Below, in pieces: positions 754-64,000 of a stretch of 64,000 nucleotides of DNA. How positions within the stretch are numbered: position 1 is the stretch's first letter; each line of letters starts with the position of its first letter. The DNA lies in the NCBI GenBank assembly GCA_020152595.1, contig JAIGNY010000310.1, positions 1 to 64,000 of the forward strand, in the 5' to 3' direction. The notes under the pieces were generated by a model. It had not been told where the DNA came from. It worked only from the letters and a program-made list of their open reading frames with translations, and did no database searches. The position numbers and the translations under genes were made by a program. This stretch comes from Chiridota heheva (Eukaryota; Echinodermata; Holothuroidea; Apodida; Chiridotidae).

Positions 754-787
<34 letters not shown>
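754..787. repeat. (TA)n microsatellite, short allele
   Basis: About 17 TA units directly upstream of the LINE fragment in duplication copy 1. The paralogous tract in copy 2 is roughly six times longer. Confidence 0.95.
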
Positions 788-794
<7 letters not shown>

Positions 795-807
795 AATAAA
801 TATAGCA

Positions 808-1375
808 GTGAAGTCTATGAAACCTCTTTACAATTCTTTAGTTTTTCCTTACATTGATTATTGTCTGGAGGTTCGGGGTAACCCCTATCAATGCAATATT
901 CATCCAATTTTTGTCATTCAAAAGAAAGCAATAAGAATGATTTACAAAGCAAAAGTCAACGCTCATACAAATACATTTTTCATTGATGTGAAAGCTATTA
1001 AATTAAAAAATCTTGTCAATTATAAGACTGCCTGGATTATGTTTAACTGTTTAAAGCCAAAAACAATATTACCTTCAAATTTGCAAGAATTATTTGCTGA
1101 AAAATGGGGATATCTGGGGACACATCAGAGGGACAATTTCCAACAAGTTTCTGTGTGAACTACATTGAAGCTATGTGTGTTTCAGTTCAAGGGGTTAAAA
1201 TATGGAATTTGCCCAATTTGGAACTTAAAAAATGTAAAAGTGTACAGTACATATATTTAAGAGGAGATTTAAATTTGAAATATTTGAAAAGTAGAAATTG
1301 CTGTAATTTCATAACTTTTATTCATTGGATAGGTTTATGTCAGTGTACAACACATTTTTTGCTCTGTTAAGTATT
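808..1375 (+). pseudogene. Decayed non-LTR retrotransposon (LINE) ORF2 C-terminal end, copy 1
   Basis: Reading from 808 gives the C-terminal 'thumb' part of a LINE reverse transcriptase. Recognisable signatures are [20 protein letters not shown], then IQKKAIRMIYKA, and later, in another frame, VQGVKIWNLPNLE. These match the CR1/L2/Jockey-type layout (Y.DYC..VWGN; ILQKKALRII; GPKIWNSLP). The first frame stops near 1156 and homology continues in an overlapping frame from about 1104, so there is a frameshift. No RT catalytic core or endonuclease is present, so this is a 5'-truncated, dead insertion. A/T-rich 3' sequence runs on to about 1580 and ends in ACAAACAAACAAAAC. It is duplicated at 9877. 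Confidence 0.8.
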
Positions 1376-2772
1376 TGAATGTATTATTTTAAGAGGGGGG
1401 AAAATCACATAAGTCCAATTTTAAACTTCTTCTCTCTCCTTTTCCATTCATTTTCTTTTGAATTGCAAATGTCCTTAACACTTCTATTTATTTTGTTTAC
1501 TATTTGTATATTGTATATTAGTTAAGGTTTTGATGTACTGAGATGCATGATGGAAATAAATTACAACAAACAAACAAAACCCGCTCACTCTTTACCTGCT
1601 TACAAATAGCTTTTGGACCTTGCAAAGACCCATTTGCACGTTAAGTATGAAGTGCCCCCGTGACCCGCTGCTAATAGATAAGTCCCCAGTGATTCTGGTG
1701 ATGCTTCCCGTTCATATCCAATCATCAAATCTTTGTAACAAAATAGGTGCAAGAAATGTGAAAGATACTAAGGGACTCGCCATGCTTATAGATATATCAT
1801 TTCAATTTGATGTTATAATTATAGAACTTAAAGGAACAGCATCGTCCCATAAGTACGTACAGAAGTGAACGCCGCCATGCTTGAAAAGTTACTTCCGGTT
1901 TTAAATTTTCCCTATTGACCACGTGAAATCAGCGATGTTATCGATCATACATTCGCCGTACTGAACATGGGGGCCTACATGTGTTATCGATAGAATCACA
2001 GATTTCTCACAATCAATATGGAAAATTGAAAATCGAAAGTGACTTTAAGAGCTTGGCAGTGTTCACTTCTGAATTAGTTTATGGGACAAAAATTCAACTT
2101 TACTTAAATGTGATATTTCTTTGTTCATATTTTCACATTATTATCCACGCAAATGGAGAGTTCATCATACCAGCAATCAGCTGTACACAGTAGTGTCCAC
2201 CCATCAGTTGGAGAACATAGAAGTTTGTTCTCTCAAAGGGTAAATCAATCTATAGTTTTGCTATATCTGATCAGGCCACATGAAATGTGATAGTTCCAAT
2301 TTTAAAGTTCCCAAATTAGTTGATTGCAAGTATGATGAAATAAAAAAAAATCTTTCCAATGATGAACGAACACTACATCCTTTATGATAGACTCAGATGA
2401 TAATTTAGATATTATTTAAATCATTTATTTCTTTTTGTGAAAATTGCATCTTTCTGATTATTAGCCTGCAACGTACCAAAACATATACTAGATTTCAGTG
2501 TCATGTCATTTTTACTATGCACTATCCACTTTCCTAACTCATATGTACTTTTCAAATTTCTTTATTTTTATGATTATTGTACCGCTTAGTTTTTTTATTG
2601 AATCAATGCATGTTTTTCTTCGCGACCTCTTTCATATAAATCGACATGAGCATTATTTTAAATGATTTTCCTTATGATAAATGTATCTGTAGAAACAAAG
2701 TTATAAAAAAACAAAAAAAACATTTCATTTTCTTCATTTATTACATGCATTTTTCTTTGCTTTAATACCATT

Positions 2773-2960
2773 TTGAGTTTGCTTCAAGATGTGCATGATG
2801 CTACAATTACGGTTAAGGGTTTTTTAAGCAATCTTGAATGCGATTGCCTGTTGAACTACATTGCTTGTTTTGATTTGACAGCAAACTGCAAGGTTCAACC
2901 CATTGCCACCATTGACTTCAGCTGCCCAACAAAGAAGTGGAAGAATCACAGTGGGTATGA
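2773..2960 (+). other. Open stretch of unknown nature, shared by both duplication copies
   Basis: A cysteine-containing open frame (LECDCLLNYI, then FSCPTKKWKNH) runs up to a possible splice donor (ACAG-TGGGTATG). The paralogous stretch at 11834-12020 is also open but differs by about four amino-acid changes against about two silent ones, so there is no sign of purifying selection between the copies. It may be an old exon or chance. I recognise no family. Confidence 0.2.
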
Positions 2961-3389
2961 ACTAGTTTGTCTTATATATATATATATATATTTTTTTTTG
3001 GGGGGAGGGTACAAATGAAAAATGTTTTTTTCTTTTACTTTTTTCTTCATAGAATCAAGCAACATTGATGTCATAAATTTAAAACTATTCTCTTGTTATT
3101 ATGAAAAACAAGAAACTTGATATTCTCTAGCGTAATACGCTGTCACTTTTAAGAATAGTACAACAATTTCCATGTCATTAATGTGCCATAGTGTTCCTTC
3201 AGGCATTGTCTGTCACATTCAAAACATATCTCATCCAATTTTGATACAAAAACCTCAGCCTTGTCTTAGCCTTTTGTCCATGGGCATCAAAAGCGCCTCC
3301 TATCAGAAAGGGCACTGAAGACCTAAAAAAATATCCTAGTTTGAGTGGAAAAATTGCACTGCCTAATTTATTTCCTATCAACGGTTGAG

Positions 3390-3720
3390 TAATTTCTCCT
3401 ATTCAGGAAGTTTGCCATTTTGTGGATCATCCTTCAATTTTCAACAAGTTTTAAATTATTTTAGGGAAATTTCCTTAATTTCCCAACATTAGTTTTTAAT
3501 TTTTGGGAATTTCCCCCTTTTTTGGGGCAGGTGTCCCTTTTCATAAAATTTACTTCAATTATCAGGAAATTTGACTAATTTCCAAAAAGTTATATTCAAT
3601 TTTTGGAAAGTTTTCTTCAACTTTTAGGAAATGTTGCAAGATACTACCAAAATTCTCAAATGTACCAAATTCCCCTTTCTTTGACCAACTTTGCAATAAT
3701 TTCCAATTTTACCTCCCAAC
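3390..3720. repeat. Degenerate 'TTTTCGGGAAATTT'-type repeat field
   Basis: Irregular repetition of GGAAATTT / CAATTTTTGGAA / CTTCAATTTT words with a spacing of about 20-40 bases. It is the inverted-sense version of the fields at 5325-5475, 28620-28880 and 29780-30600. The paralogous block lies at 12440-12770 in duplication copy 2. No coding content seen. Confidence 0.6.
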
Positions 3721-5324
3721 CGGAAAGATTTCATTTACCCAACTGAATACTATCCTCCCGGTTGGGAGGTAAAATTGGGAAATGCTTTACACAAAATGAA
3801 AACAAAAAAAGAGTGAAACTAAAGAACAGTATGTAATTTTGTTCGGTTTTGGGTAAATTTAAATTAAAGAAAAATGTAGCAACATGTCCCATAAATTGAA
3901 GAATAAATTTCATGAAATTTGAAGCCTTTTTTTTTTTCAAAAAAATTGTCTGAAAATGAAGAAATTGCTTGAAACTGAAACAAAAAAAAAAAAAAAAAAA
4001 CCTTCCACTGTCAGTAGCGACGGCAAGGAAGGGGGGCATAACGTCCCCTCCCTATGTCCAAAATTATATTGTCCAAAATGACTATTTTTGACTTTTTTAA
4101 TTGGGGGGGTGATGTGTCTTTGAGCAGTAACTTTATGCCGTTTGTTCCAATTCACTCGGCTGTAAAATTAGTACCAGTTTCGGCTTAGAAGTTAGAGGAG
4201 AAGTAAAGTCAAAAATGTTCTGTCGTGGCCCTCAGGATGCGACATGACTGGTATTGTAAACTCCATGCTCAAAACCCGCCATCTTTTTATTAAGGGTTAT
4301 ATTTTAAATTTTATTACATGAAGAGAATATAGACTTCAAATTAAGTGTTTTTTATTGAAGGTTGTTTTTTAATGGTTACTCTGCTACAATCAATTTCAGC
4401 AATGCTAATTCAGACAATTTATTGCGTTGTTTTTATTCGCAAAACTCGTGTAAATTGGCAATGTTGAGGAATGCACACGAAAACTTTCGGTGCCAATCCG
4501 ATATTTTAATAGTCAGCTCTAAATCGTGATATAAAGAATGATATCATTTAAACTTTTTAGGCTGTTTCTGAAACATAATAGAAAATATCTATTACACTAA
4601 ATTATTTGTTGAAGATTCACAAAGAGATAATGAAGGAGAATAATTTTAAATTTGAAATGAAGGAAGCTAGTCTCACCGGATGCGGGTGTGAAATTTAAAG
4701 AGCTAAGTTAAGAAATTAATAGCGTGGATACGGTATAATTACAACACTTCATCTCATTATGCACGTACACACTGTAATATTATCTGAATCTGAATAGGTG
4801 AAGGTTATATGGACGCTTAGTATACAGGTATAGAGGGATTTCATCACGTGACTCTAACTCAACTGGACTCCATTTTGCAGGGCAGCGGCGTCGCTGCGTT
4901 TCACGCGTCTTCACACAGCTCAATCACATCACACGTACAAACATACATACAAACATACTACATGCTAGCCTACCAGTATCAGTTCAGCGAAATTGCAATT
5001 ATTTGCTCGCTGCCGATTTTAATTAATATTTTCCGTAATTTGTATATTTTCATCGGGTATACGAAGAGAAATTTTAACGTTAACGCTAGCTGATTGTTTG
5101 TATAACTCAGACGAAGCGTACGGACTTAATTATAAAGTGCTCACTGCAAATCCTCTTTAAGGGGCATGTCTAACTTTTCGTTTTTGAAGGGTTTTAAGTC
5201 CCCCCTTCCACAAAAAAACAATTGCAGCCAGTTTCAGATTAGGGAGGAATAGGTTTCTATTTTCCGGTTGCATGCATCATACTTTATTTATGACAAAGTG
5301 TAAAATTATTAACATAAAATTAAA

Positions 5325-9660: not shown

Positions 9661-9863
<203 letters not shown>

Positions 9864-9876
9864 AATAAATATAGCA

Positions 9877-10444
9877 GTGAAGTCTATGAAACTTCTTTAC
9901 AATTCTTTAGTTTTTCCTTACATTGATTATTGTCTGGAGGTTTGGGGTAACCCCTATCAATGCAATATTCATCCAATTTTTGTCATTCAAAAGAAAGCAA
10001 TAAGAATGATTTACAAAGCAAAAGTCAACACTCATACAAATACATTTTTCATTGATGTGAAAGCTCTAAAATTAGAAAATCTTGTCAATTATCAGACTGC
10101 CTGGATTATGTTTAACTGTTTAAAGCCAAAAACAGTATTACCTTCAAATTTGCAAGAATTATTTGCTGAAAAATGGGGATATCTGGGGACACATCAGAGG
10201 GACAATTTCCAACAAGTTTCTGTGTGAATTACATTGAAGCTATGTGTGTTTCAGCTCAAGGGGTTAAAATATGGAATTTGCCCAATTTGGAACTTAAAAA
10301 ATGTAAAAGTGTACAGTACATATTTTTAAGAGGAGATTTAAATTTGAAATATTTGAAAAGTAGAAATTACTGTAATTTCATAACTTTTATTCATTGGATA
10401 GGTTTATGTCAGTGTGCAACACATTTATTGCTCTGTTAAGTATT
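9877..10444 (+). pseudogene. Decayed LINE ORF2 C-terminal end, copy 2
   Basis: Duplicate of the fragment at 808-1375, with the same signatures ([31 protein letters not shown]). This copy keeps the tryptophan of the VWGN motif, which is arginine in copy 1. The same frame break between the two halves is present, showing that decay preceded duplication. The downstream A/T-rich 3' region runs to about 10650 and ends in CAAACAAACAAAAC. Confidence 0.8.
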
Positions 10445-13400
10445 TGAATGTATTATTTTAAGAGGGGGGAAAATCACATAAGTCCAATTTTAAACTTCTT
10501 CTCTCTCCTTTTCCATTCATTTTCTTTTGAATTGCAAATGTCCTAACACTTTTATTTATTTTGTTTACTATTTGTATATTGTATATTATTTAAGGTTTTG
10601 ATGTACTGAGATGCATGATGGAAATGAATTACAACAAACAAACAAAACCCTCTCACTCTTTACCTGCTTACAAATAGCTTTTGGACCTTGCAAAGACCAT
10701 TTGCACTTTAAGTATGAAGTGCCCCCGTGACCCGCTGCTAATAAATAAGTCCCCAGTGATTCTGGTGATGCTCCCAGTTCATATCCAATCATCAAATCTT
10801 TGTAACAAAATAGGTGCAAGAAATGTGAAAGATACTTACTGTACAGGGACTCGCCATGCTTATAGATATATCATTTCAATTTGATGTTACAAATATAGAA
10901 CTTAAAGGAACAGCATCGTCCCATAAGTACGTTCAGAAGTGAACGCCGCCATGCTTGAAAAGTTACTTCCGGTTTTAAACTTTCCCTATTGACCACGTGA
11001 AATCAGCGATGTTATCGATCATACATTCGCCGTACTGAACATGGGGGCCTACATGTGTTATCGATAGAATCACAGATTTCTCACAATCAATATGGAAAAT
11101 TGAAAACCGAAAGTGACTTTAACAGCTTGGCAGTGTTCACTTCTGAATTAATTTATGGGACAAAAATTCAACTTTACTTAAATGTGATATTTTTTGTTCA
11201 TATTTTCACATTATTATCCACGCAGGTGGAGAGTTCATCATACCAGCCATCACAGCTGTACACAATAGTGTCCACCCATCAGTTGGAGAACATAGAAGTT
11301 TGTTCTCTCAAAGGGTAAATAAATCCATAGTTTTGCTATATCTGATCAGGCCACATAAAATGTGATAGTTCCAATTTTAAAGTTCCCAAATTAGTTGATT
11401 GCAAGTATGATAAAATAAAAAAACCTTTCCAATGATGTACGAACACTACATCCTTTATGATAGACTCAGATGATAATTTAGATATTATTTAAATCATTTA
11501 TTTTTTTTGTGAGAATTGCATCTTTCTGATTATTAGCCTGCAACGTACCAAAACATATACTAGATTTCAGTGTCATGTCATTTTTACTCTGCACTATCCA
11601 CTTTCCTAACTCATCTGTACTTTTCAAATTTCTTTGTTTTTATGATTGTTGTACCGCTTAGTTTTGTATTGAATCAATGCATGTTTTTCTTCGACCTCTT
11701 TCATATAAATTGACATGAGAATCATTTTAAATGATTTTCCTTATGATAAATGTATCTGTAGAAACAAAGTTATAAAAACAACATTTCATTCTCTTCATTT
11801 ATTACATGCATTTTTCTTTGCTTTAATACCATTTTGAGTTTGCTTCAAGATGTGCATGATGCTACAATTACGGTTAAGGGTCTTTTAAGCAATCTTGAAT
11901 GCGATTGCTTGTTGAACTATATTTCTTGTTTTGATTTGACAGCAAACTGCAAGGTTCAACCCATTGGCACCATTGACTTCAGCTGCCCAACAAAGAAGTG
12001 GAAGAATCACATTGGGTATGAACTAGTCTTATATATATATATATATTTATTTTTTGGGGGTATAAATGAAAAATGTTTTTTTCTTTTTCTTTTTTCTTCA
12101 TAGAATCAAGCAACATTGATGTAATCAATTTAAAACTATTCTCTTTTTATTATGAAAAACAAGAAACTTGATATTCTCTAGCGCAATACGCTGTCACTTT
12201 TAAGAATAGTACAACAATTTCCATGTCATTAATGTGCTATAGTGTTCCTTCAGGCATTGTCTGTCACATTCAAAACATATCCCATCCAATTTTGATACAA
12301 AAACCTCAGCCTTGTCTTAGCCTTTTGTCCATGGGCATCAAAAGCGTCTCCTATCAGAAAGGGCACTGAAGACCTAAAAAAATATCCTAGTTTGAGTGGA
12401 AAAATTGCACTGCTTAATTTATTTCCAATCAAGGGTTGAGTAATTTCTCCTATTCAGGTAGTTTGCCATTTTGTGGATCATCCTTCAATTTTCAACAAGT
12501 TTTAAATTATTTTAGGGAAATTTCCTTAATTTCCCAACATTAATTTTCAATTTTGGGGAATTTCCCCCTTTTTGGGGGCAGGTGTCCCTTTTCATAAAAT
12601 TTACTTCAATTATCAGGAAATTTGACTAATTTCCAAAAAGTTATATTCAATTTTTGGAAGTTTTCTTCAACTTTTAGGAAATGTTGCAAGATACTACCAA
12701 AATTCTCAAATGTACCAAATCTCCCTTTCTTTGACCAACTTTGCAATAATTTCCAATTTTACCTCCCAACCGGAAAGATTTCATTTACCCAACTGAATAC
12801 TATCCTCCCGGTTGGGAGGTAAAATTGGGAAATGCTTTACACAAAATGAAAACAAAAAAAGGGGTAAAACTAAAGAACAGTATGTAATTTTATTGGGTTT
12901 TGGGTAATTTTAAATTAAAGAAAAATGTAGCAACATGTCCCATAAATTGAAGAATAAATTTCATGAAATTTGAAGACATTTTTTCACCCCAAAAAATTGT
13001 CTGAAAATGAAGAAATTGCTTGAAACTGAAACAGAAAAAAAAAACCTTCCACTATCAGTAGCGACGGCAAGGGAGGGGGGCATAATGTCCCCTCCCTATG
13101 TCCGAAAGTATTTTGTCCAAAATGACTATTTTTGATTTTAATTGAGGGGGTGCAAATTTGTCTTTGAGCAGTAACTTTATGCCGTTTGTTCCAGTTCACT
13201 CGGCTGTAAAATTAGTACCAGTTTCGGCTTAGAAGTTAGAGGAGACGTAAAGTCAAAAATGTTCTGTCGTGGCCCTCAGGATGCGACATGACTGGTATTG
13301 TAAACTCCATGCTGAAAACCCGCCATCTTTTTATTGAGGGTTATATTTTAAATTTTATTACATGAAGAGAATATGGACTTGAAATTAAGTGTTTTTTATT

Positions 13401-14101
13401 GAAGGTTGTATTTTAATGGTTACCTGCTACAATCAATTTCAGCAATGCTAATTCAGACAATTTATTGCGTTGTTTTTATTCGCAAAACTCGTGTAAATTG
13501 GCAACGTTGAGGAATACAGACGAACACTTCCGGTGCCAATCCGATATTTTAATAGTCAGCTCTAAATCGTGATATAAAGAATGATATCATTTAAACTTTT
13601 TTAGGCTGTTTCTGAAACATAATAGAAAATATCTATTACACTAAAATATTTTTTGAAGATTCACAAAGAGATAGTGAAGGAGAATAATTTTATTTTAAAT
13701 TTGAAATGAAGGAGGCTAGTCTCACCGGATGCGGGTTTGAAATTTAAAGAGCTAAGTTAAGAAATTATTAGCGTGGATACGGTATAATTACACCACTTCA
13801 TCTCACTATGCACGTACCCACTGTAATATTATCTGAATCTGAATAGGTGAATGTTTTATGGAAGCTTAGTATACAGGTATAGAGGGATTTCATCACGTGA
13901 CACTAACTCAACTGGACTCCATTTTGCAGGGCAGCGGCGTCGTTGCGTTTCACGCGTCTTCACACAGCTCAGTCACATCACACGTACAAATATACATACA
14001 AATATACTACATGCTAACCTACCAGTACCATTTCAGCGAAATTGCAATTGTTTGCTCGCTGCCGATTTTACTTCATATTTTCCGTAAGTTTTATATTTTC
14101 A

Positions 14102-14209
14102 TCGGGTATACGAAGAAAATTTTTAACGTTACCGCTAGCTGATTGTTTGTATAACTCGGGTATACGAAGATAAATTTTAACGTTAACGCTAGCTGATTGT
14201 TTGTATAAT
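14102..14209. repeat. 54-bp tandem duplication private to copy 2
   Basis: The segment beginning TCGGGTATACGAAGA and ending GATTGTTTGTATAA is present twice in a row here but once in copy 1 (about 5053-5107). It therefore arose after the large duplication. Confidence 0.85.
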
Positions 14210-18479: not shown

Positions 18480-18735
18480 TATGGGATGTCATGTGAGACA
18501 TGGGGTGGGATGCCATGTGGGACATGGGGTGGAATGCCATGTGGGACATGGGGTGGGATGCCATGTGAGACATGGGGTGGGATGCCATGTGGGACATGGG
18601 GTGGGATGCCATGTGGAACAGGGTGGAATGCCACGTAGGATATGTGGTGAAATGCCATGCAGGACATAGGGTGGATTGCCATGTGATGGAATGTCATGTG
18701 GGACATGGGATGTTATGTGGGACATGGCGTCCTAC
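18480..18735. repeat. 24-bp minisatellite block A (ATGCCATGTGGGACATGGGG)
   Basis: Regular 24-bp units of the kind GGTGGGATGCCATGTGGGAC, degenerating after about 18620. The unit length is a multiple of three, so both strands stay open and give artefactual Met-Gly-Trp-Asp or Met-Ser-His-Met type frames. The block is bounded on both sides by copies of one 92-bp flank (18388-18477 and 18747-18839). Confidence 0.93.
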
Positions 18736-18746
18736 CCCATTTCAAC

Positions 18747-18839
18747 AAGCATTTGCATATAAGTTATTATATGAACTGACACTTTCATACATAGTATGCT
18801 CAATCAGGGACTGTGATAGCTAGGATGAGACTTCTTATG
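18747..18839. repeat. 92-bp flank repeat, second copy
   Basis: Near-identical to 18388-18477 (GGGACTGTGATAGC here against GGGACTGGTAGC there). It separates the two 24-bp minisatellite blocks. Confidence 0.88.
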
Positions 18840-18844
18840 GACCC

Positions 18845-19755
18845 TATGGGATGTCATGTGGAACATGGGGTGGGATGCCATGTGGGACATGGAATGGGAT
18901 GCTATGTGGGACATGGGGTGGGATGCCATGCAGAACATGGTAGAATGCCATGTGGGACATAGTGGGATGCCACGAGTAACACAGAGTGTGACATAGGTTG
19001 GGATGCCATGTGTGACATAAGGTATGATGCCATGTGTGACATAAGGTAGGATGTCATGTGTGACATAGGGTAGGAGACTATGTGGGACATAGGGTAGGAA
19101 GCCATGGGGACATGGGATGTGGGACATGGGATGAGATGCCATGTGGGACATTAAATAGGATGTCATTGGGACATTAGGAGGGATACCATGTGGAACATAT
19201 GGTGGGATGCTATGTGGAACATCAGGTGGGAAGCCACTGATGCGGGACACAGGGGGGATGCCATGTGGGACATAGGGAGGGATGTCATGTGGTACATATG
19301 GTTGGATTGATATGGGACATACATATAGGATGGGATCTATGTGGGTCATAGCATGGGATGCCATGTGGGACATATGGTGGAATGCCATGTGGGACATATG
19401 GTGGAATGCCATGTGAGACACTGTATGGTGGTTTGCCATGTGGGAGATATGGTGGAATGCCATGTTGGACAAGGCATGGCATGTCATGTGGAGCATACGG
19501 TGGGATGTCATTTGGTACATGGGATGTGGGACATAGGGTGGAATGCCATGTGGGTAATAGAATGGGATGCCCTGTGGGACATATGATAGAATGCCAAGTG
19601 GGACATGGGATGTCATGTGGGACATGGGGTGGGATGCCATGTAGAAGATATGGTGAAATGCCATGTGGGACATGGGATGGGATACCATGTGGGACATGGG
19701 GTGAGGTGCCATGTGGTACATGGGATGCCATGTTGGACTTAGTGTGAGATGCCAT
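18845..19755. repeat. 24-bp minisatellite block B, diverged
   Basis: About 900 bp of imperfect CCATGTGGGACAT(A/G)GGGTGGGATG units with many small indels. A 305-codon open frame on the minus strand (18804-19721) consists only of Met-Ser-His-Met-Ala-Ser-His-Pro-like iterations, shows no other domain and is not a gene. Related sequence recurs at 22720-22800 and 55020-55690. Confidence 0.9.
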
Positions 19756-33180: not shown

Positions 33181-35070
33181 ATGTGTTTACCTCTGTGTAT
33201 ATCAGATTTCTTTTTGTAACAGTAATGTCTCACAAATATTCAATAAAATCCAACGAAAATTCAGAAAGCATTATTCAAAACCATTGTAGTGTTTACATTT
33301 TTTTTTTACGGGATAAATTTCAGGGTAAGATTTATGTAAATTTCTGGGGAAATACACAAAACTCACCATCCAGGCTCTTCTAATAAGGCCCTGACCATAG
33401 GCCTATGTGTTACTAGGTGATGTTACATTTAAGCCACATTTGTAAAGCCATTAAAATCAAGGCATGATCGCTAACATCCTATCCAGTTACACCTGAAACA
33501 GAGAAAGTAATAGATTGCATTTGATCTACAAGTGTTTTCCAAAGCCCATCCATCTCAGGAAATTGTCATCTGATACACCTATTCGCAATTAACATTCTTT
33601 TATATGCCGACGGACGGAGAAATTAGCGGTGTAGATTTTGAGTGACAGCGACAAGCCATAGTCTGGGGCGGACTGGCCAGTCGGTCCATTCCCGCACCGC
33701 CCCGGCTTCAAATTAGTGTATAATATGCCTCACAAAGCGTGAAAAACCGCTGGAGCGGCCCACCAGGAGCTCAAACTCTCCCCCGTTTAGTCAGTCTTGG
33801 CGCCCCTTTGGGGGCACCTCGACCGATGGAATGTCAACCCCCAAACCGCCCCTGGGGCCCATAGTCAAAGCTATTTAGCCAATATTTTTCGGGCAATGTT
33901 TTGTTTGACTATACTTGTGGGATTTTCAACCTCCCAGCTCTTTTTCACCACTTAACTCTGTTGTCAATTCAATGAGCGTTTTGATTGGTTTGTACATGGA
34001 GTTATATGAATACTTCCGAGAATAGACACACATTCATATTGCGGGGGTCAAAGAGTACTTGCTCCCACTTTTTCTGAATTTGTATGGCGATTTATTTGCA
34101 TATTAGCTTGTTTTTGTAACCCCCACTTTGACCCCCCCCCCCCCTCCCACACACACACACTTTGAATGTAATTAAACAAAAACAAGATTTATCATTGCAT
34201 AATTTTTTTCAAACTTTCTTTAGTTTTGCTACCATCTTGACATATCCAATGGTTTTTATTATGGAATACATAAAGATTTTGAGGAATCTGATGATGTAAT
34301 ATCACAACTAGTCTGATTTCAGTCGTTTCCACAAATATGATACAAAACTTAAATATCTCCTTAATGGAATCAGGTTTTCAATGCTTTCTTGAACATTTTG
34401 TTGCATTGGAAGTCCTCTTTCTTATTAGATTAACTTGTTTGACCACTAATCAAATCCTTTCAAACTGACACAGTACACAAAAGAGTGTCTACATTAAATA
34501 AACAGCATAGAGAAAGCAATATTTATTTACCACAAAACAATGTAATGAGTAGAAATTGAATGAACAACACTAAGAGTTTGGTTAAGACCTAATAATACAA
34601 AAACAAACTTTGTCTAGAATCTTACATAAATGACTTTAGTCAAATCCAAACTTCAACACATCTTTCTACATGATACCAATACATGCAGGCAGTTTAAGCA
34701 TCTTGGAACTACTCATTTAACTACATAATAAACAATCCATAGAGGATGCATTTATTTGTGTCCAGTAGACCAGCAACCGCTTTGGGAGACAGCAGCCTTG
34801 TAGTTGTGGTTATTCAGATAAACAGCAATTAATTTGTCATCAAACTGAGTAAAACTGAAAATGAAACGATTTCTATTAAAGCAATGAATTCCTGTATCGT
34901 TGATATAAGAACATGGATGTTCACCTACAAACAAATGACAGCAAGACAAAACTCTTTATCTCAGGTTAAAATCAGATGCTATTTCAAGTCAATAGTCAAT
35001 CCATAAAAGGAGGTTATTTAGAAATAAAGTCACTATCTTGTAAAAAAGAGCATTATTTTTATAATGACCT
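33181..35070. other. Mostly unique non-coding DNA
   Basis: Contains a GC-rich islet at 33660-33870 (GGGGCGGACTGGCCAGTCGG ... CCAAACCGCCCCTGGGGCCC) that stands out from the A/T-rich surroundings and may be a repeat fragment. It also contains a C-tract with (CA)n at 34128-34162 and a diverged copy (34350-34460) of the 107-bp unit of 19885-20240. No gene seen. Confidence 0.45.
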
Positions 35071-35074
35071 ACTA

Positions 35075-36420
35075 GTGCATGTATATGTTACATCACATTT
35101 AGATTATTGTAGTTGTATTTATTCATGATTCCAAAATACACATTATAAAAACTTCAATGCATGCAAAATGTTGCTGCTTAATGTAACAGACACAAAAATA
35201 CCTCAGCACATAACACCCATTCTAAAAGTTTTACATCAGCTGAAAGTTGAACATAGAATCTATTACAAAATTATTTTATTTACTTTCAAAGACTCAAAGA
35301 TAGATTTGGAATGGCACCACAATATCTCAGCGATCTCTTATTGGATAACCTTGTTAGAAACTTAGGATCAAAACACAAAACTAAATACAAAATACCATGC
35401 ACCAAGTCTGAAACTACTGGTATTCATTCTTTATTTACCACCCCGTCCTGCTTCCGGCAGAAGTCTGAAACTGCTGGTATTCATTCTTTATCTACCACCC
35501 CGTCCTGCTTCCGGCAGAAGTCTAAAACTGCTGGTATTCATTCTTTATCTACCACCCCGTCCTGCTTCCGGCAGAAGTCTAAAACTGCTGGTATTCATTC
35601 TTTATCTACCACCCGTCCTGCTTCCGGCAGAAGTCTAAAACTGCTGGTATTCATTCTTTATCTACCACCCGTCCTGCTTCCGCAGAAGTCTAAAACTGCT
35701 GATATTCATTCTTTATCTACCACCCGTCCTGCTTCGGCAGAAGTCTAAAACTGCTGGTATTCATTCTTTATCTACCACCCGTCCTGCTTCCGGCAGAAGT
35801 CTAAAACTGCTGGTATTTATTCTTTATCTACCACCCCGTCCTGCTTCCGGCAAAAGTCTAAAACTGCTGGTATTCATTCTTTATCTACCACCCCGTCCTG
35901 CTTCCGGCAGAAGTCTAAAACTGCTGGTATTCATTCTTTATCTACCACCCCGTCCTGCTTCCGGCAGAAGTCTAAAACTGCTGGTATTCATTCTTTATCT
36001 ACCACCCCGTCCTGCTTCTGGCAGAAGTCTAAAACTGCTGGTATTCATTCTTTATCTACTACTCCGTCCTGCTTCCAGCAGAAGTCTAAAACTGCCGGTA
36101 TTCATTCTTTATCTACCACCCCGTCCTGCTTCTGGCAGAAGTCTAAAACTGCCGGTATTCATTCTTTATCTACCACCCCGTCCTGCTTCTGGCAGAAGTC
36201 TAAAACTGCCAGTATTCATTCTTTATCTACTACCCCGCCCTGCTTCCTGCAGAATTCACTTGCACAAAATCTTTGACAAACGACATATCTTAAATTATTT
36301 TAAAAGGACCTTTAAAGCTTGTTCTATTTGGCATGTGTTACGGTCTATAATTCTTGTTTGTTTTTCTTGACTAAACTAACTTTTTGCACAGCGCTATTGA
36401 CAGATCATTGAGTATTCTTT
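35075..36420 (+). mobile_element. LINE 3' end split by an internal minisatellite
   Basis: Before the array, frames encode LDYCSCIYS, then ITPILKVLHQLKVEHRI(Y)YK and APQYLSDLLLDNLVRNLGS. These correspond to the C-terminal region of L2/CR1-type ORF2 (ITP(V/I)LK.LHWLPV..RI.FK; AP.YLS.LL). After the array (from 36253) the frame NSLAQNL..TTYLKLF continues, the usual NSLP...YL..FK element that follows GDR.FS..AP.LW. The LINE is thus collinear across the array. Stops and frameshifts show it is dead. The 3' region runs to about 36420. Confidence 0.75.
35404..36252. repeat. 57-bp minisatellite, ~15 copies, inside LINE ORF2
   Basis: Units start AAGTCTAAAACTGCTGGTAT and end CCGTCCTGCTTCCGGCAG. The full unit is 57 bp and some copies are 54-56 bp. 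In frame the unit reads K-S-K-T-A-G-x-x-S-L-S-T-T, the place where a LINE would read K.KT.GDR.FS..AP.LW. The unit therefore appears to be an amplified stretch of LINE coding DNA. Indels in some copies break the frame, so the array is not maintained as protein. Confidence 0.92.
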
Positions 36421-36491
36421 ATAATATTAACAGAGCTTTATAAAAGTCAATTAGATTTACCCCGCTAAGCGTAGCGGGGATATTTACGAGA

Positions 36492-48702: not shown

Positions 48703-49556
48703 TAATCACGTGGGCCCTACCATAATATCACGTGGGTCCTACCATAAGACCACGTGGGCCCCACGATAATATCACGTGGGTCCTAGGATAATATCACGTG
48801 GGTCCTACCATAATATCACGTGGGCCCTACCATAACATCACGTGGGCCCTACCATAACATCACGTGGGCCCTACCATAATATCACGTGGGCCCTACCATA
48901 ATATCACGTGGGCCCTATCATAATATCACGTGGGTCCTACCATAATATCACGTGGGTCCTACCATAACATCACGTGGGCCCTACCATAACATCACGTGGG
49001 CCCTATCATAACATCACGTGGGCCCTACCATAATATCACGTGGGCCCTACCATAGTATCACGTAGGCCCTACCATAATATCACGTGGGCCCTACCATAAC
49101 ATCACGTGGGCCATACCAAAACATCACGTGGGCCATACCAAAACATCACGTGGGCCCTACCATAATATCACGTGGGCCCTACCATAATATCACGTGGGCC
49201 CTACCATAATACCACATGGGCCCTACAATAATATCACGTCGGTCCTACCATAATATCACGTGGGACCTACCTTAACATCACGTGGGCCCTACCATAACAT
49301 CACGTGGGCCCTACCATAATATCACGTGGGCCTTACCATAACATCACGTGGGCCATACCAAAACATCACGTGGGCCCTACTATGATATCACGTGGGCCCT
49401 ACCATATCACGTGGGCCCTACCATAATACCACGTGGGCCCTACAATAATATCACGTCGGTCCTACCATAATATCACGTGGGCCCTACCATAATATCACGT
49501 GGGCCCTACCATAACATCACGTGGGCCCTATCATAATATTACGTGAGCACTACCAT
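48703..49556. repeat. 22-bp satellite with an E-box (CACGTG) in nearly every unit
   Basis: About 39 head-to-tail units of ATCACGTGGGCCCTACCATA plus two bases (AT or AC). The palindrome CACGTG is intact in about 34 units, with variants CACGTA, CACATG, CACGTC (twice) and TACGTG. One unit near 49400 is shortened by three bases. CACGTG is the canonical E-box bound by Myc/Max-, USF- and related bHLH proteins, but binding here is not shown by the sequence. Confidence 0.95.
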
Positions 49557-51008: not shown

Positions 51009-52096
51009 CAGAATACCACAATTGCTACAGTACAAGTTAATATACCTCTAACGTTGATGTGGACCACGCTCCTGGGGTCCTCATAGTATCACAATTGCTA
51101 CAGTACATGTCAATAGACCTCTAACGTTGATGTGGACCACGCTCCTGGGGTCCTCAGAATATCACAATTGCTACAGTACATATCATAGACCTATAACGTT
51201 GATGTGGACCACGCTAATGGGGTCCTCAGAATATCACAATTGCCACAGTACATGTTATAGACCTCTAACGTTGATGTGGACCACGCTCCCGGGGTCCTCA
51301 GTATATCACAATTGCTACAGTACATGTCAATAGACCTCTAACGTTGATGTGGACCACGCTCCTGGGGTCCTCAGAATATCACAATTGCTACAGTACATGT
51401 CATAGACCTCTAACGTTGTGTGGACCACACTCCTGGGGTCCTCAGAATATCACAATTGCTACAGTACATGTCAATAGACCTATAACGTTGATGTGGACCA
51501 CGCTCCTGGGGTCCTCAGAATATCACAATTGCTACAGTACATGTCAATAGACCTCTAACGTTGATGTGGACCACGCTCCTGGAGTCCTCAGAATATCACA
51601 AATGCTACAGTACATGTCATAGACCTCTAACGTTGTAAGCACCACGCTCCTGGGGTCCTCAGAATATCACATTTGGTACAGTACATATCATAGACCTATA
51701 ACGTTGATGTGGACCACGCTAATGGGGTCCTCAGAATATCACAATTGCTACAGTACATGTTAATAGACCTCTAATGTTGATGTGGACCACGCTCCTGGGG
51801 TCCTCAGTATATCACAATTGCTACAGTACATGTCATAGACCTCTAACGTTGTAAGCACCACGCTCCTGGGGTCCTCAGAATATCACATTTGGTACAGTAC
51901 ATGTCATAGACCTCTAACGTTGATGTGGACCACGCTAATGGGGTCCTCGGAATATCATAATTGCTACAGTACATGTTAATAGACCTCTAATGTTGATGTG
52001 GACCACGCTCCTGGGGTCCTCAGAATATCACAATTGCTACAGTACATGTCAATAGACCTCTAACGTTGATGTGGACCACGCTCCTGAGGTCCTCAT
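51009..52096. repeat. 73-bp tandem satellite, ~15 copies
   Basis: Units start CTAACGTTGATGTGGACCAC, continue GCTCCTGGGGTCCTCAGAAT and end CAGTACATGTCAATAGACCT. Length is 72-73 bp. Sub-variants (GCTAATGGGG, GTAAGCACCACG, ATTTGGTACAG) recur at regular distances, suggesting higher-order blocks. Short open frames over it are artefacts. Confidence 0.95.
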
Positions 52097-57100: not shown

Positions 57101-58600
57101 ATACAACCTCCCACTAAGTTTTTTTCCTTGTTAGGTTGTTCAAAATGCATAAAAACAGCAAAAAAGAATGAAAAACGAGAATATTTCACATACATTTTTC
57201 GCATTGTCAAGAAATTTACCTGTGTATAAACGAACTAAACCAACTACTGAAGGTCGTGCATTAAGTGCACGCACAAGTCATGACAATGCAAATACTTCAT
57301 ATAAATTTTATAACAATGATTAATACGCTAAAAGCCCTTTCACTATAATACAATAACATTTTCATTTGATTTCAACTTGTAAATAAAGGAGTTTGCCGAT
57401 TAAAAGTTGTGCATCATTTTTTAAACCCTATGTATTGGCAATACGTATGATAAACTGAAATTGTGTGTTATACAAAGCTTTTCATTTACTTCTTCATGCT
57501 CATACATAGACCCATCAAGCATTCAAGGAAAATATGAAAGCAAATACCAATTCCATAAGAAAACCTGTATATTGATGTTGTACTATCTACACATACTTGG
57601 CAATGAAAGTGTATTTTAATATGGGCACGGGAAAAGCAGAGCCTGCAGGGGTTAGCAACTGATCATCAATTTAATTAACAGTTTAGCCCATTCGGCTTAA
57701 AGTCTTGGAACTATACCCAATCATGTAAATGTTCAAATTTTCATTAATATGATAGAAGACTATTGGCGAAAACATATTAATATAGTAATGAGTTTTGGTG
57801 TTATTGTGCTTCAAAGTGGTAAAAATAGTGTTCTGAAAAGTAACTTTGTATGCAGTATTACAGTGTGATGCCATACTTGCAGATTAAAGGATTACTTTTG
57901 GTTTAGGAATTTCTTCAAAATCTTAATTGCCTCTTTTGAAATCATTTTTTGTTCAATTGTTGAGTTGGGGAATAAAAATCCCTTTACATGAACATGTACT
58001 GCCCATTTGTTTATATACCTCATGCATTTAAGGGAATTGCACTATAAACTAGAATTTCAATGATGTAGTAGCTTAACATATATTTTTGCGTGTGGATTTA
58101 AACCTGTTTTTGGGAGTGGGTACAGCCTTTGGCAATACAGCCTTTGGCACCTCAATTGATATTTACAGACGATTGCATAAGTTGTTACAATTTTAAAACA
58201 ACTTTGTTAGCTGATAATATTCAGTGGTCATCTGCTCTTTGACATTTTTAAGGGATCTCTACCTATTGTCTTTATAACTAAGAAAACTTTACAGACATTC
58301 AAATTAATGTCAATATGTGCTTTGAAACCTTTTGCTCCATTTAATTCGTCTCAAATCTATTTTTAAAGCTTAATGGTGTTTGCGCACACAGTCGTAACAA
58401 TGCTAATGACAAGAATTAAAACAGTACATCACACATGCATATGATCAATCCTGTGTTTATTCTACAGAATAAATAGGAGAAGTAAACAAATTAATATATT
58501 GAAATATATCTTTAAGTACTTACGGGATGGCTGTGCTGTTGATGCATCCTATGTAAAGAGCAAATACAAAAACACTTAATATGTAATATTTACGACTGTT
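57101..58600. other. Unique non-coding DNA
   Basis: A/T-rich. No exon, RNA gene or transposon protein recognised up to the LINE fragment. Confidence 0.5.
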
Positions 58601-58614
58601 ATTCGTCAAGGCTA

Positions 58615-59290
58615 TTGTTATTGCTACATTTCGACCAGATTTGTCTACATATAAAACCATCTGATTGTGTAAAAAATTGGGGTGTTTATATGGACAATCA
58701 CATGTCTATGAGTATTTATATTGGGAAAGTTTGTTCCAAAGCTTATCACGGTCTTTATAACATTCGTCAGACTGCCAAATATTTAAATGAAGATTTCTTA
58801 AAATCTCTTATTAATGCTTTTGTTATAAGTCACATTGGTTATTGTAATTCACTTCTTGTTGGCCTACCTGATTATCAACTTTACAGAATTCAAAGAATAC
58901 TTAATGGTGCTGCTCGGCTGATTTTCAGAATATCAAAATTTTCTTACATTAATGCTGTTTTGAAGTCTCTTCACTGGTTACCAGTCAAACAAAGAATATT
59001 ATATACAATTATTGTACAAGTTTTCAAATACATTGAAGGCCTTCTTCCCAATGATTTACATGTAATGGTAGTTAAAAAAAACCATCCCGCTATTATTTTC
59101 ATTTGAAGTCCCTATTTGTTCCCTGTATTAGGCTAAAACTCTTGGTGATAGGGCCTTTGCTTATAAAGGTCCTTGGTTGTAGAATTCCCTCCCAACTGAA
59201 TTCAAATATATTGGTAATGTACCCTTAACCTTTAAAACTAAGCTTAAACTTTTTGGTTTAAAAATACACTCATCTAATTGTGCAGCTTGA
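58615..59290 (+). pseudogene. LINE ORF2 C-terminal domain (L2/CR1 type)
   Basis: Encodes the post-catalytic part of a non-LTR reverse transcriptase. Signatures in order are NWGVYMDNHMSM, AYHGLYNIRQ, SHIGYCNSLLVGLPDYQLYR, IQRILNGAARLIF and LKSLHWLPVKQRI. In a second frame from about 59125 come KTLGDRAFAYKGPWL, a TAG stop replacing the expected Trp, then NSLPTEF and LTFKTKLKLFGLKIH. ORF2 ends with NCAA and TGA at 59288-59290, which lies inside the first unit of the following array. At least one frameshift and one stop make it non-functional. Confidence 0.85.
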
Positions 59291-62200
59291 TCCAATGTGT
59301 TTTGATTGTTGTCTCTTCATCTAATTGTGCAGCTTAATCCAATGTGTTTTGATTTGTTGTCATTTCATCTAATTGTGCAGCTTGATCCATTGTGTTTTGA
59401 TTTGTTGTCATTTTATTTAATTGTGCAGCTTGATCCATTGTGTTTTGATTTGTTGTCATTTCATCAAATTGTGCAGCTTGATCCATTGTGTTTTGATTTG
59501 TTGTCATTTCATCTAATTGTGCAGCTTGATCCATTGTGTTTTGATTTGTTGTCATTTCATCAAATTGTGCAGCTAGATCCATTGTGTTTTGATTTGTTGT
59601 TATTTCATCTAAATGTGCAGCTTGATCCATTGTGTTTTGATTTGTTGTCATTTCATCTAATTGTGCAGCTTGATCCATTGTGTTTTGATTTGTTGTTATT
59701 TCATCTAATTAAGCAGCTTGATCTATTGTGTTTTGATTTGTTGTCATTTCATCTAATTGTGCAGCTTTGATCCATTGTGTTTTGATTTGTTGTCATTTTA
59801 TCTAATTGTGCAGCTTTGTTTCATTGTGTTTTGATTTGTTGTTATTACATCTAATTGTGCAGCTTAATTCACTGTGTTTTGATTTGTTGTTATTTTATCT
59901 AATTGTGCAGCTTGATCCATTGTTATTTCATATAATTGTGCAGCTTGATCCATTGTGTTTTGATTTGTTGTCATTTCATCTAATTGTGCAGCTTGATCCA
60001 TTGTGTTTTGATTTGTTGTCATTTGATCTAATTGTGCAGCTTGATTCATTGTGTTTTGATTTGTTGTCATTTCATCTAATTGTGCAGCTTGATCCATTGT
60101 GTTTTGATTTGTTGTTATTTCATCTAATTAAGCAGCTTGATCTATTGTGTTTTGATTTGTTGTCATTTCATCTAATTGTGCAGCTTTGATCCATTGTGTT
60201 TTGATTTGTTGTCATTTTATCTAATTGTGCAGCTTTGTTTCATTGTGTTTTGATTTGTTGTTATTACATCTAATTGTGCAGCTTAATTCACTGTGTTTTG
60301 ATTTGTTGTTATTTTATCTAATTGTGCAGCTTGATCCATTGTTATTTCATATAATTGTGCAGCTTGATCCATTGTGTTTTGATTTGTTGTCATTTCATCT
60401 AATTGTGCAGCTTGATCCATTGTGTTTTGATTTGTTGTCATTTGATCTAATTGTGCAGCTTGATCCATTGTGTCTTGATTTGTTGTTATTTCATCAAATT
60501 GTGCAGCTTGATCCATTGTATTTTGATTTGTTGTCATTTCATCTAATTGTGCAGCTTGATCCATTGTGTTTTGATTTGTTGTCATTTCATATATTTGTGC
60601 AGCTTGATCTATTATGTTTTGACTTGTTGTTATTTCATTTAATTGTGCAGCTTGATCCATTGTGTTTTGATTTGTTGTCATTTTATCTACTTGTGCAGCT
60701 TTGTTTCATTGTGTTTTGATTTGTTGTTATTACATCTAATTGTGCAGCTTAATTCACTGTGTTTTGATTTGTTGTTATTTTATCTAATTGTGCAGCTTGA
60801 TCCATTGTTATTTCATCTAATTGTGCAGCTTGATCCATTGTTTTGATTTGTTGTCATTTCATCTAATTGTGCACCTTGATCCATTGTTTTGATTTGTTGT
60901 CATTTCATCTAATTGTGCAGCTTGATCCATTGTGTCTTGATTTGTTGTTATTTCATCAAATTGTGCAGCTTGATCCATTGTATTTTGATTTGTTGTCATT
61001 TCATCTAATTGTGCAGCTTGATCAATTGTGTTTTGATTTGTTGTCATTTCATATATTTGTGCAGCTTGATCCATTGTGTTTTGATTTGTTGTCATTTCAT
61101 CTAATTGTGCAGCTTGATCCATAGTGTTTTGATTTGTTGTCATTTCATATAATTGTGCAGCTTGATCCATTGTGTCTTGATTTGTTCTTATTTCATCAAA
61201 TTGTGCAGCTTGATCCATTGTATTTTGATTTGTTGTTATTACATCTAATTGTGCAGCTTAATTCACTGTGTTTTGATTTGTTGTTATTTCATCAAATTGT
61301 GCAGCTTGATCCATTGTATTTTGATTTGTTGTCATTTCATCTAATTGTGCAGCTTGATCCATTGTGTTTTGATTTGTTGTCATTTCATATATTTGTGCAG
61401 CTTGATCTATTATGTTTTGACTTGTTGTTATTTCATTTAATTGTGCAGCTTGCTCCATTGTGTTTTGATTTGTTGTCATTTTATCTAATTGTGCAGCTTT
61501 GTTTCATTGTGTTTTGATTTGTTGTTATTACATCTAATTGTGCAGCTTAATTCACTGTGTTTTGATTTGTTGTTATTTTATCTAATTGTGCAGCTTGATC
61601 CATTGTTATTTCATCTAATTGTGCAGCTTGATCCATTGTGTTTTGATTTGTTGTCATTTCATCTAATTGTGCAGCTTGATCCATTGTTTTGATTTGTTGT
61701 CATTTCATCTAATTGTGCAGCTTGATCCATTGTGTCTTGATTTGTTGTTATTTCATCTAATTGTGCAGCTTGATCCATTGTATTTTGATTTGTTGTCATT
61801 TCATCTAATTGTGCAGCTTGATCAATTGTGTTTTGATTTGTTGTCATTTCATATATTTGTGCAGCTTGATCCATTGTGTTTTGATTTGTTGTCATTTCAT
61901 CTAATTGTGCAGCTTGATCCATTGTGTTTTGATTTGTTGTCATTTCATAGAATTGTGCAGCTTGATCCATTGTGTTTTGATTTGTTGTCATTTCATCTAA
62001 TTGTGCAGCTTGATTCATTGTGTTTTGATTTGTTGTCATTTCATCTAATTGTGCAGCTTGATCCATTGTGTTTTGATTTGTTGTCATTTCATCTAATTGT
62101 GCAGCTTTCATCCATTGGGTTTTGATTTGTTGTTATTACATCTAACTGTGCAGCTTGATTCATTGTTTTGATTTATTGTTATTTCATTTAATTTTGCAGC

Positions 62201-63809
62201 TTGATCCATTGTGTTTTGATTTGTTGTCATTTCATCTAATTGTGCAGCTTTGATCCATTGTGTTTTGATTTGTTGTCATTACATCTAATTGTGCAGCTTG
62301 ATCCATTGTGTTTTGATTTGTTGTTATTTCATTTAATTGTGCAGCTTGATTCTTTATGTTTTGATTTGTTGTCATTTCATCTAATTGTGCAGCTTAATCC
62401 ATTGTGTTTTGATTTGTTGTCATTTCATCTAATTGTGCAGCTTGATCCATTGTGTTTTGGTGTGTTGTCGTTTCATCTAATTGTGTAGCTTAATCTATTA
62501 TGTTTTGATTTGTTGTTATTTCATCTAGTTGTGCAGCTTGATCTATTGTGTTTTGATTTGTTGTCATTTCATCTAATTGTGCAGCTTGATCCATTGTGTT
62601 TTGATTTGTTGTCATTTCATCTAATTGTGCAGCTTGATCCATTGTGTTTTGATTTGTTGTCTCTTCATCTAATTGTGCAGCTTGATCTATTGTGTTTTGA
62701 TTTGTTGTCATTTCATCTAATTGTGCAGCTTGATCCATTGTTTTGATTTGTTGTTATTTCATCTAATTGTGCAGCTTGATCCATTGTGTTTTGATTTGTT
62801 GTCATTTCATCTAATTGTGTAGCTTGATCTATTGTGTTTTGATTTGTTGTCATTTCATCTAATTGTGCAGCTTGATCTATTGTGTTTTGATTTGTTGTCA
62901 TTTCATCTAATTGTGCAGCTTGATCTATTGTGTTTTGATTTGTTGTCATTTCATCTAATTGTGCAGCTTGATCCATTGTGTTTTGATTTGTTGTCATTTC
63001 ATCTAATTGTGCAGCTTGATCTATTGTGTTTTGATTTGTTGTCATTTCATCTAATTGTGCAGCTTGATCCATTGTTTTGATTTGTTGTCATTTCATCTAA
63101 TTGTGCAGCTTGATCCATTGTGTTTTGATTTGTTGTCATTTCATCTAATTGTGCAGCTTGATCTATTGTGTTTTGATTTGTTGTCATTTCATCTAATTGT
63201 GCAGCTTGATCCATTGTTTTGACTTGTTGTTATTTCATCTAATTGTGCAGCTTGATCCATTGTGTTTTGATTTGTTGTCTCTTCATCTAATTGTGCAGCT
63301 TGATCCATTGTGTTTTGATTTGTTGTTATTTCATTTAATTGTGCAGCTTGATTCTTTATGTTTTGATTTGTTGTCATTTCATCTAATTGTGCAGCTTAAT
63401 CCATTGTGTTTTGATTTGTTGTCATTTCATCTAATTGTGCAGCTTGATCCATTGTGTTTTGGTGTGTTGTCGTTTCATCTAATTGTGTAGCTTAATCTAT
63501 TATGTTTTGATTTGTTGTTATTTCATCTAGTTGTGCAACTTGATCCATTGTGTTTTGATTTGTTATTTCATTTAATTGTGCAGCTTGATCCTTTATGTTT
63601 TGATTTGTTGTCATTTCATCTAATTGTGCAGCTTGATCCATTGTGTTTTGATTTGTTGTCATTTCATCTAATTGTGCAGCTTGATCCATTGTGTTTTGAT
63701 GTGTTGTCATTTCATATAAGTGTGTAGCTTGATCAATTATGTTTTGACTTGTTGTTATTTCATTTAATTGTGCAGCTTGATCCATTGTGTTTTGATTTGT
63801 TGTCATTTT
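59270..63809. repeat. 48-bp minisatellite, ~94 copies, grown from LINE stop-codon region
   Basis: The consensus unit runs CATCTAATTGTGCAGCTTGA, TCCATTGTGTTTTGATTTGT, TGTCATTT. The length of 48 bp equals 16 codons, so both strands stay open for long stretches (plus: IVQLDPLCFDLLSFHL; minus: MDQAAQLDEMTTNQNT). Neither is a plausible gene. Shortened units (TCCATTGTTTTGATT; TCCATTGTTATTTCAT) and variants (GCAGCTTTGTTTCATTG, GCTTAATTCACTG) recur as blocks, giving higher-order repeats of about 0.42 kb (59812, 60231) and about 1.0 kb (62240-62490 against 63245-63490). Confidence 0.96.
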
Positions 63810-63889
63810 TGTATTCTTGTTTTCGTATCTAATTTTCTTGTATGTAAATTGCTTTTCAATGTATTTACAAAATTAGCGCTATATAGATT

Positions 63890-64000
63890 AATGTATCATT
63901 ATCATTATTATTGTTATTATTATTATTATTATTATTATTAATAATATTATATTATAATTATTATTTTTCTTATTACTATTCCTATTACTATTATTATCAT
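63890..64000. repeat. ATT/TTA microsatellite at LINE 3' terminus
   Basis: TATCATTATCATTATTATTG then repeated ATT continues to about 63940 and degenerates towards the window end. This is typical of the simple-repeat tails of L2-clade elements. Confidence 0.8.

Follow-up and report, generated by a model that had tools for sequence, protein, structure and literature searches.

How a long minisatellite came to lie within the 3' end of a LINE, and whether such an array can travel with the element, are the questions raised by a locus near the end of the window, a stretch of 64,000 nucleotides from Chiridota heheva with which contig C313 begins; the genome searched was the window's own 1.1-Gb assembly. 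The first-pass annotation had placed an array of mostly 48-bp units at a LINE end, and the array is real: TRF delimits one tandem array at 59270-63808 (forward strand, as are its LINE flanks and the unit blocks given below), with periods of 48 bp and multiples of 48 bp and a top score of 6485. Split by an anchor at the conserved core, it comprises 96 units, a number that, like the array length, may be affected by the assembly. Seventy-five units are 48 bp long, eight 49 bp, seven 46 bp, four 33 bp, and one each 47 and 45 bp. There are 50 distinct unit sequences, and units no shorter than 45 bp diverge from one another by 7.2% on average; because the units homogenise, an age estimate from this value was dropped. 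The four shortened 33-bp units are identical to one another, the first occupying 59896-59928 and the others lying at 60315, 60781 and 61579. Exact comparison of the unit order, together with the unit table, revealed two repeated blocks: units 9-16 (59654-60024, eight units) recur letter for letter as units 18-25 (60073-60443, a lag of nine units), and units 65-69 (62282-62521, five units) recur likewise as units 86-90 (63284-63523, a lag of 21 units). The coding potential of the array is nothing notable, with four stop-to-stop frames of at least 150 aa (152-164 aa), and the reading as a protein-coding array was rejected. Function is not needed to explain the array.

Both flanks of the array belong to one LINE copy, with ORF2-like sequence before it and the 3' UTR and an ATT-rich tail after it. 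The same flanks surround a single unit in all 20 of the other copies aligned, and the array therefore interrupts a single LINE copy. We take this LINE to be L2/CR1-like from its GCGCTATATA plus ATT-type 3' end and the look of its ORF2. The part before the array is a 5'-truncated remnant of the ORF2 C-terminus (58651-59277). With a query of 58600-59400, homology starts at query position 52, which corresponds to 58651, in 39 of 39 other scored copies (best 40 of 1012 candidates), and in tblastn the ORF2 C-terminus of the relative L008 matches the window copy from 58651 onward, the match being spread over three frames and interrupted by a single stop. The element does possess a reverse transcriptase domain, as RVT_1 is found in L008 (E 1.1e-14); this match lies upstream of the point corresponding to 58651, and the window copy begins downstream of the RVT_1 region as placed in that relative. 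A Pfam search of the window's own ORF2 fragment returned a sub-threshold SPC12 match and nothing else. After the array the 3' UTR resumes at 63809-63890 (alignment with the 20 other copies) and carries GCGCTATATA at 63876-63885, which bears out the earlier statement that the LINE continues beyond the last unit; the ATT-rich tail follows at 63891-64000 and, on the evidence of L058, continues past the window as an imperfect ATT/ATC simple repeat.

The first-pass annotation had also derived the array from the stop-codon region of the LINE, reading the last codons as Ser-Asn-Cys-Ala-Ala followed by a TGA at 59288-59290. The region was rightly chosen, the codons were not. The ORF of L008 ends in KTFLFKKTLI-stop and the window copy, in its last frame, in NTLI-TAA, so that the homologous ORF2 stop is the TAA at 59275-59277, which falls inside unit 1. 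The window copy has a 1-bp deletion (relatives AAGCTTAAAAC, window AAGCTTAAAC), and the Ser-Asn-Cys-Ala-Ala-TGA reading is out of frame because this deletion shifts the frame. The host copy is dead, a 5'-truncated and frameshifted remnant.

In the relatives the unit is ordinary LINE sequence. A unit-like stretch occurs once, directly between the ORF2 end and the 3' UTR, in all 20 aligned copies, and the unit aligns to it along its length. In the search with the LINE-end query, the 39 non-self copies match continuously to query positions 698-714 at 87-88% (unit 1 runs to 717), and none of the 39 had a further unit listed beyond that position (best 40 of 1012 candidates). Counting the unit core with up to three substitutions allowed gave exactly one core, at the ORF2-end/3' UTR boundary, in 59 of 61 distinct other fetched copies. 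The first set consisted of 60 distinct other places, 59 with one core and one (L040) with no core in full; the remaining copy (L101) was a later addition and has three cores, spaced 15 bp apart. Seventeen of the 59 one-core copies (L041-L057) had been fetched for matching the unit. When L042, whose unit resembles that of the array most closely, served as the query, the match ran unbroken through the unit at all 39 other places scored (best 40 of 1192 candidates), 13 of these 39 also being among the matches to the LINE-end query. Scoring only the top 40 of 1012, 355 or 1192 candidates in each DNA search favours copies that are intact and unexpanded. The unit derives from the LINE and extends across the ORF2 stop, the LINE origin being what the first-pass annotation had argued in preferring this origin to an insertion beside a LINE; being a single-copy segment of a transposable element family, it makes the array a TE-derived minisatellite.

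The tandem form, by comparison, is confined to an individual insertion, with the reservation that exact-word patterns miss old, mutated two-unit copies. Two exact cores placed 15-45 bases apart matched 27 times in the genome, all 27 within this array (control 0). The 18-base core by itself gave 557 matches (control 0), of which 51 lie in the array and 506 elsewhere, a minority of these 506 having been read. A second two-unit pattern, taken from another part of the unit, gave 113 matches with controls of 30 and 26; among the matches listed, those of LINE type, as judged by their letters alone, were this array and C1390, where the period is 26-27 bp. With the array as the query, the matches elsewhere were single units at 86-94%, C2101 and C1581 at 76 and 79%, and C1422 at 66-70% (best 40 of 355 candidates). 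C1581 (L041) had been suspected of carrying two units and was found to have one; C1422 was rejected as a second expansion, TRF identifying an unrelated 15-bp repeat (ATCACCATACAATAG) at a place where no LINE piece matched. Neither the exact two-unit genome search nor the 60 fetched copies revealed a set of independent insertions with two or more units each. An array of the unit away from the flanking LINE, which the first-pass annotation had considered incompatible with its reading, was not seen either among the best 40 of 355 candidates or, by exact words, in the whole genome.

We propose that the array very probably arose in place, from one stretch spanning the stop of a 5'-truncated LINE copy. 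The starting point would be the L2/CR1-like copy from 58651 onward, in which a single stretch of about 45-50 bp across the ORF2 stop would have been duplicated and then, through replication slippage and/or unequal exchange (gene conversion), amplified until it numbered about 96 units, the later growth being partly by block duplications of eight and five units. The blocks show in the exact identity of units 9-16 with units 18-25 and of units 65-69 with units 86-90. We infer that the first duplication came after insertion. It may have been guided by a short imperfect repeat at the unit edges, of which three bases (TTC) are exact. In L042 the edges read CATTC-ATCTGA and CATTTC-TGTATT, and one array junction reads CATTTCATCTAA; mispairing at this repeat could thus account for the first duplication, on thin support. 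CATTC precedes the unit in eight of 59 copies and CATTA in 32 of 59, and the window copy now has CACTC. The slippage model outlined in PMC3389668 has flanking direct repeats of 5-10 bp; in L042 the edges are CATTC/CATTTC, with 3 bp exact. The unit of L042 is 94% similar to that of the array and its own stretch is 45 bp; CCATTGTTTTGATTTGTTGTCATTT is common to L042 and four of the seven 46-bp array units, and GGTTTAAAAAT upstream is common to L042 and the window copy. Over the ORF2 end, L042 differs from the window copy by 0.112 within a range of 0.103-0.148 among copies, and being no closer there it is a relative by the unit stretch only.

The first-pass annotation had raised the prospect that LINEs carrying such arrays are still mobile and spread satellites around the genome; on that view a mobile LINE would already have contained the array, or a seed of two units, and brought it to this site by copying. 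There is precedent of a kind, since for LTR12 the repeats are suggested in PMC3389668 to have been present in the original element and propagated by transposition. The window copy, moreover, differs by 10-15% from the 27 rows that entered the comparison (they represent 24 distinct places; of 42 rows, 15 were dropped for a short match), so its source could be lost, and a lost two-unit ancestor has to be allowed for. The exact two-unit matches are nevertheless all at the window locus, the fetched copies have one core except for two that hold arrays of a different period, and the host copy lacks its 5' part and is broken. After the exact two-unit genome search the mobile-satellite reading was set aside, and we regard it as highly improbable. 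The same annotation had looked to the family consensus, expecting two or more shared units if the array travels with the element; by its test the array is local, all 27 exact two-unit matches lying in it, and as far as the searches reach the 48-bp array looks like a feature local to one dead LINE copy.

The moment of the first duplication could also be set earlier, at the insertion itself. In other copies the unit lies close to the LINE 3' tail, at which reverse transcription starts: its core begins 85-130 nt (mostly 102-104) upstream of the ACAAAATTAGCGC stretch, which was located in 55 of 59 copies. On this reading the reverse transcriptase would have jumped on its template close to the 3' end during target-primed reverse transcription, supplying two units for later amplification at the DNA level. 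Other copies do carry small duplications in or beside the stop/3' UTR stretch. Such a jump has left no direct trace, however, DNA slippage gives the same junction, and fetched copies with a single core predominate (59 of 61), so we consider this course unlikely, if somewhat less so than a mobile array. Almost no weight can be given to the idea that a pre-existing satellite adjoined or inserted into the LINE and resembles it by coincidence: unrelated minisatellites are certainly many in this genome (for example a 47-bp array on C209), and the window itself contains five long arrays, but the unit aligns along its length to single-copy LINE sequence in 20 of 20 copies, and no array of it was seen away from the LINE among the best 40 of 355 candidates or by exact words.

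Three further copies have expansions at or near the same LINE end. At C2101 (L040) a 14-bp unit is repeated 7.3 times in or beside the stop-codon/3' UTR stretch; at C1389 (L101) a 15-bp unit is repeated 6.1 times, with ORF2-end and 3' UTR matches on either side; and at C1390 (L048) a unit of 26-27 bp is repeated 2.7 times, again in or beside that stretch. As their units differ, these expansions are read as independent of one another. A 26-bp TRF call in L079 was rejected as a new duplication: the ORF-to-UTR distance there is the usual one (130), and the call is read as a degenerate repeat in the element. A further pattern aimed at the unit was exceeded by its reversed control (33 and 23 against 10 and 7), and thus only places read in context count; its 17 places comprise four in this array, four at C2101 and two at C1389, together with five at C3237, one at C272 and one at C1570, which were not fetched. 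Searches aimed at this stretch suggest that the LINE end is expansion-prone, a hotspot that cannot be claimed firmly because the patterns were aimed at the unit, L041-L057 were chosen by the unit and the rest were best matches. That the stop/3' UTR boundary is an intrinsic nursery of minisatellites, with four different expansions in four copies, is a tentative and rather doubtful reading; the cause would possibly be that reverse transcription begins close by, or the degenerate 26-bp repeat called by TRF in L079.

Minisatellites are abundant in the window. One of them, an array of 15 units of 57 bp at 35404-36254, follows the remnant of a different LINE-like ORF2 at about 35072-35290 (tblastn restricted to the window, E 3.5e-5). 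This stretch has eight other places at 85-93% (best 40 of 47 candidates, weaker matches being at 67-84%), with unit counts of 21, 6, about 2, about 2, 1, 1, 1 and 1. The similarity between these places exceeds the LINE remnant, reaching 3.5 kb between C1388 and C29, two places that are 97.5% similar and may be alleles or a recent duplication. The 57-bp array is therefore part of a larger repeat with multiple copies and does not count as evidence for LINE-moved arrays. The larger repeat also contains a 19-bp array (TGCTGTCTCCCAAAACGGT) of 20-35 copies at L090, L091 and L094 (C1388, C29 and C980), represented in the window by about one unit at 34771-34797. At window position 36460 the larger repeat stops and a palindromic CCCCGCTAAGCGTAGCGGGG follows, while elsewhere the repeat runs on; this looks like a later insertion. 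Additional repeats are a 4.4-kb direct duplication (754-5108 and 9823-14157, 95.6% identity), an array of units of about 24 bp (18482-19755), 39 copies of a 22-bp unit (ATCACGTGGGCCCTACCATAAT; 48705-49556) and 15 copies of a 73-bp unit (51009-52095).

TE-derived minisatellites, including those from LINE 3' ends, are already documented, and this locus illustrates a known process clearly without being out of the ordinary. For the human genome, PMC3389668 reports 7,276 tandem repeats of transposable-element origin that grew by local duplication, certain short regions of AluS and LTR12 being hotspots. The origin from a TE segment and the local duplication are the same here, and a hotspot is suggested; the human cases, as portrayed there, are mainly Alu and LTR elements, whereas ours is an L2/CR1-like LINE end with 96 units in another genome. 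Cases of tandem repeats from LINE 3' ends, including chicken CR1 and cetacean L1, appear in a section of PMC9659126, and the chicken HinfI (SCR1) repeat as presented there is likewise akin to the 3' UTR and part of ORF2 of a LINE from the CR1 family; it is a named satellite, whereas here there is one locus with a 48-bp unit. In Lathyrus sativus, satellites are traced in the corresponding passages of PMC7004042 to arrays inside LTR retrotransposons. Arrays within retrotransposons that occasionally expand are shared with our case, but the LTR elements described already have short arrays, whereas most fetched LINE copies have a single unit. The locus gives no support for a mobile array. If the nursery reading were true, the LINE would seed dispersed sites, each able to start a new locus-specific array. 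What the locus offers is a clear view of a minisatellite before and after its birth, with the many one-unit sister copies as the likely ancestral state and one locus as the 96-unit outcome.
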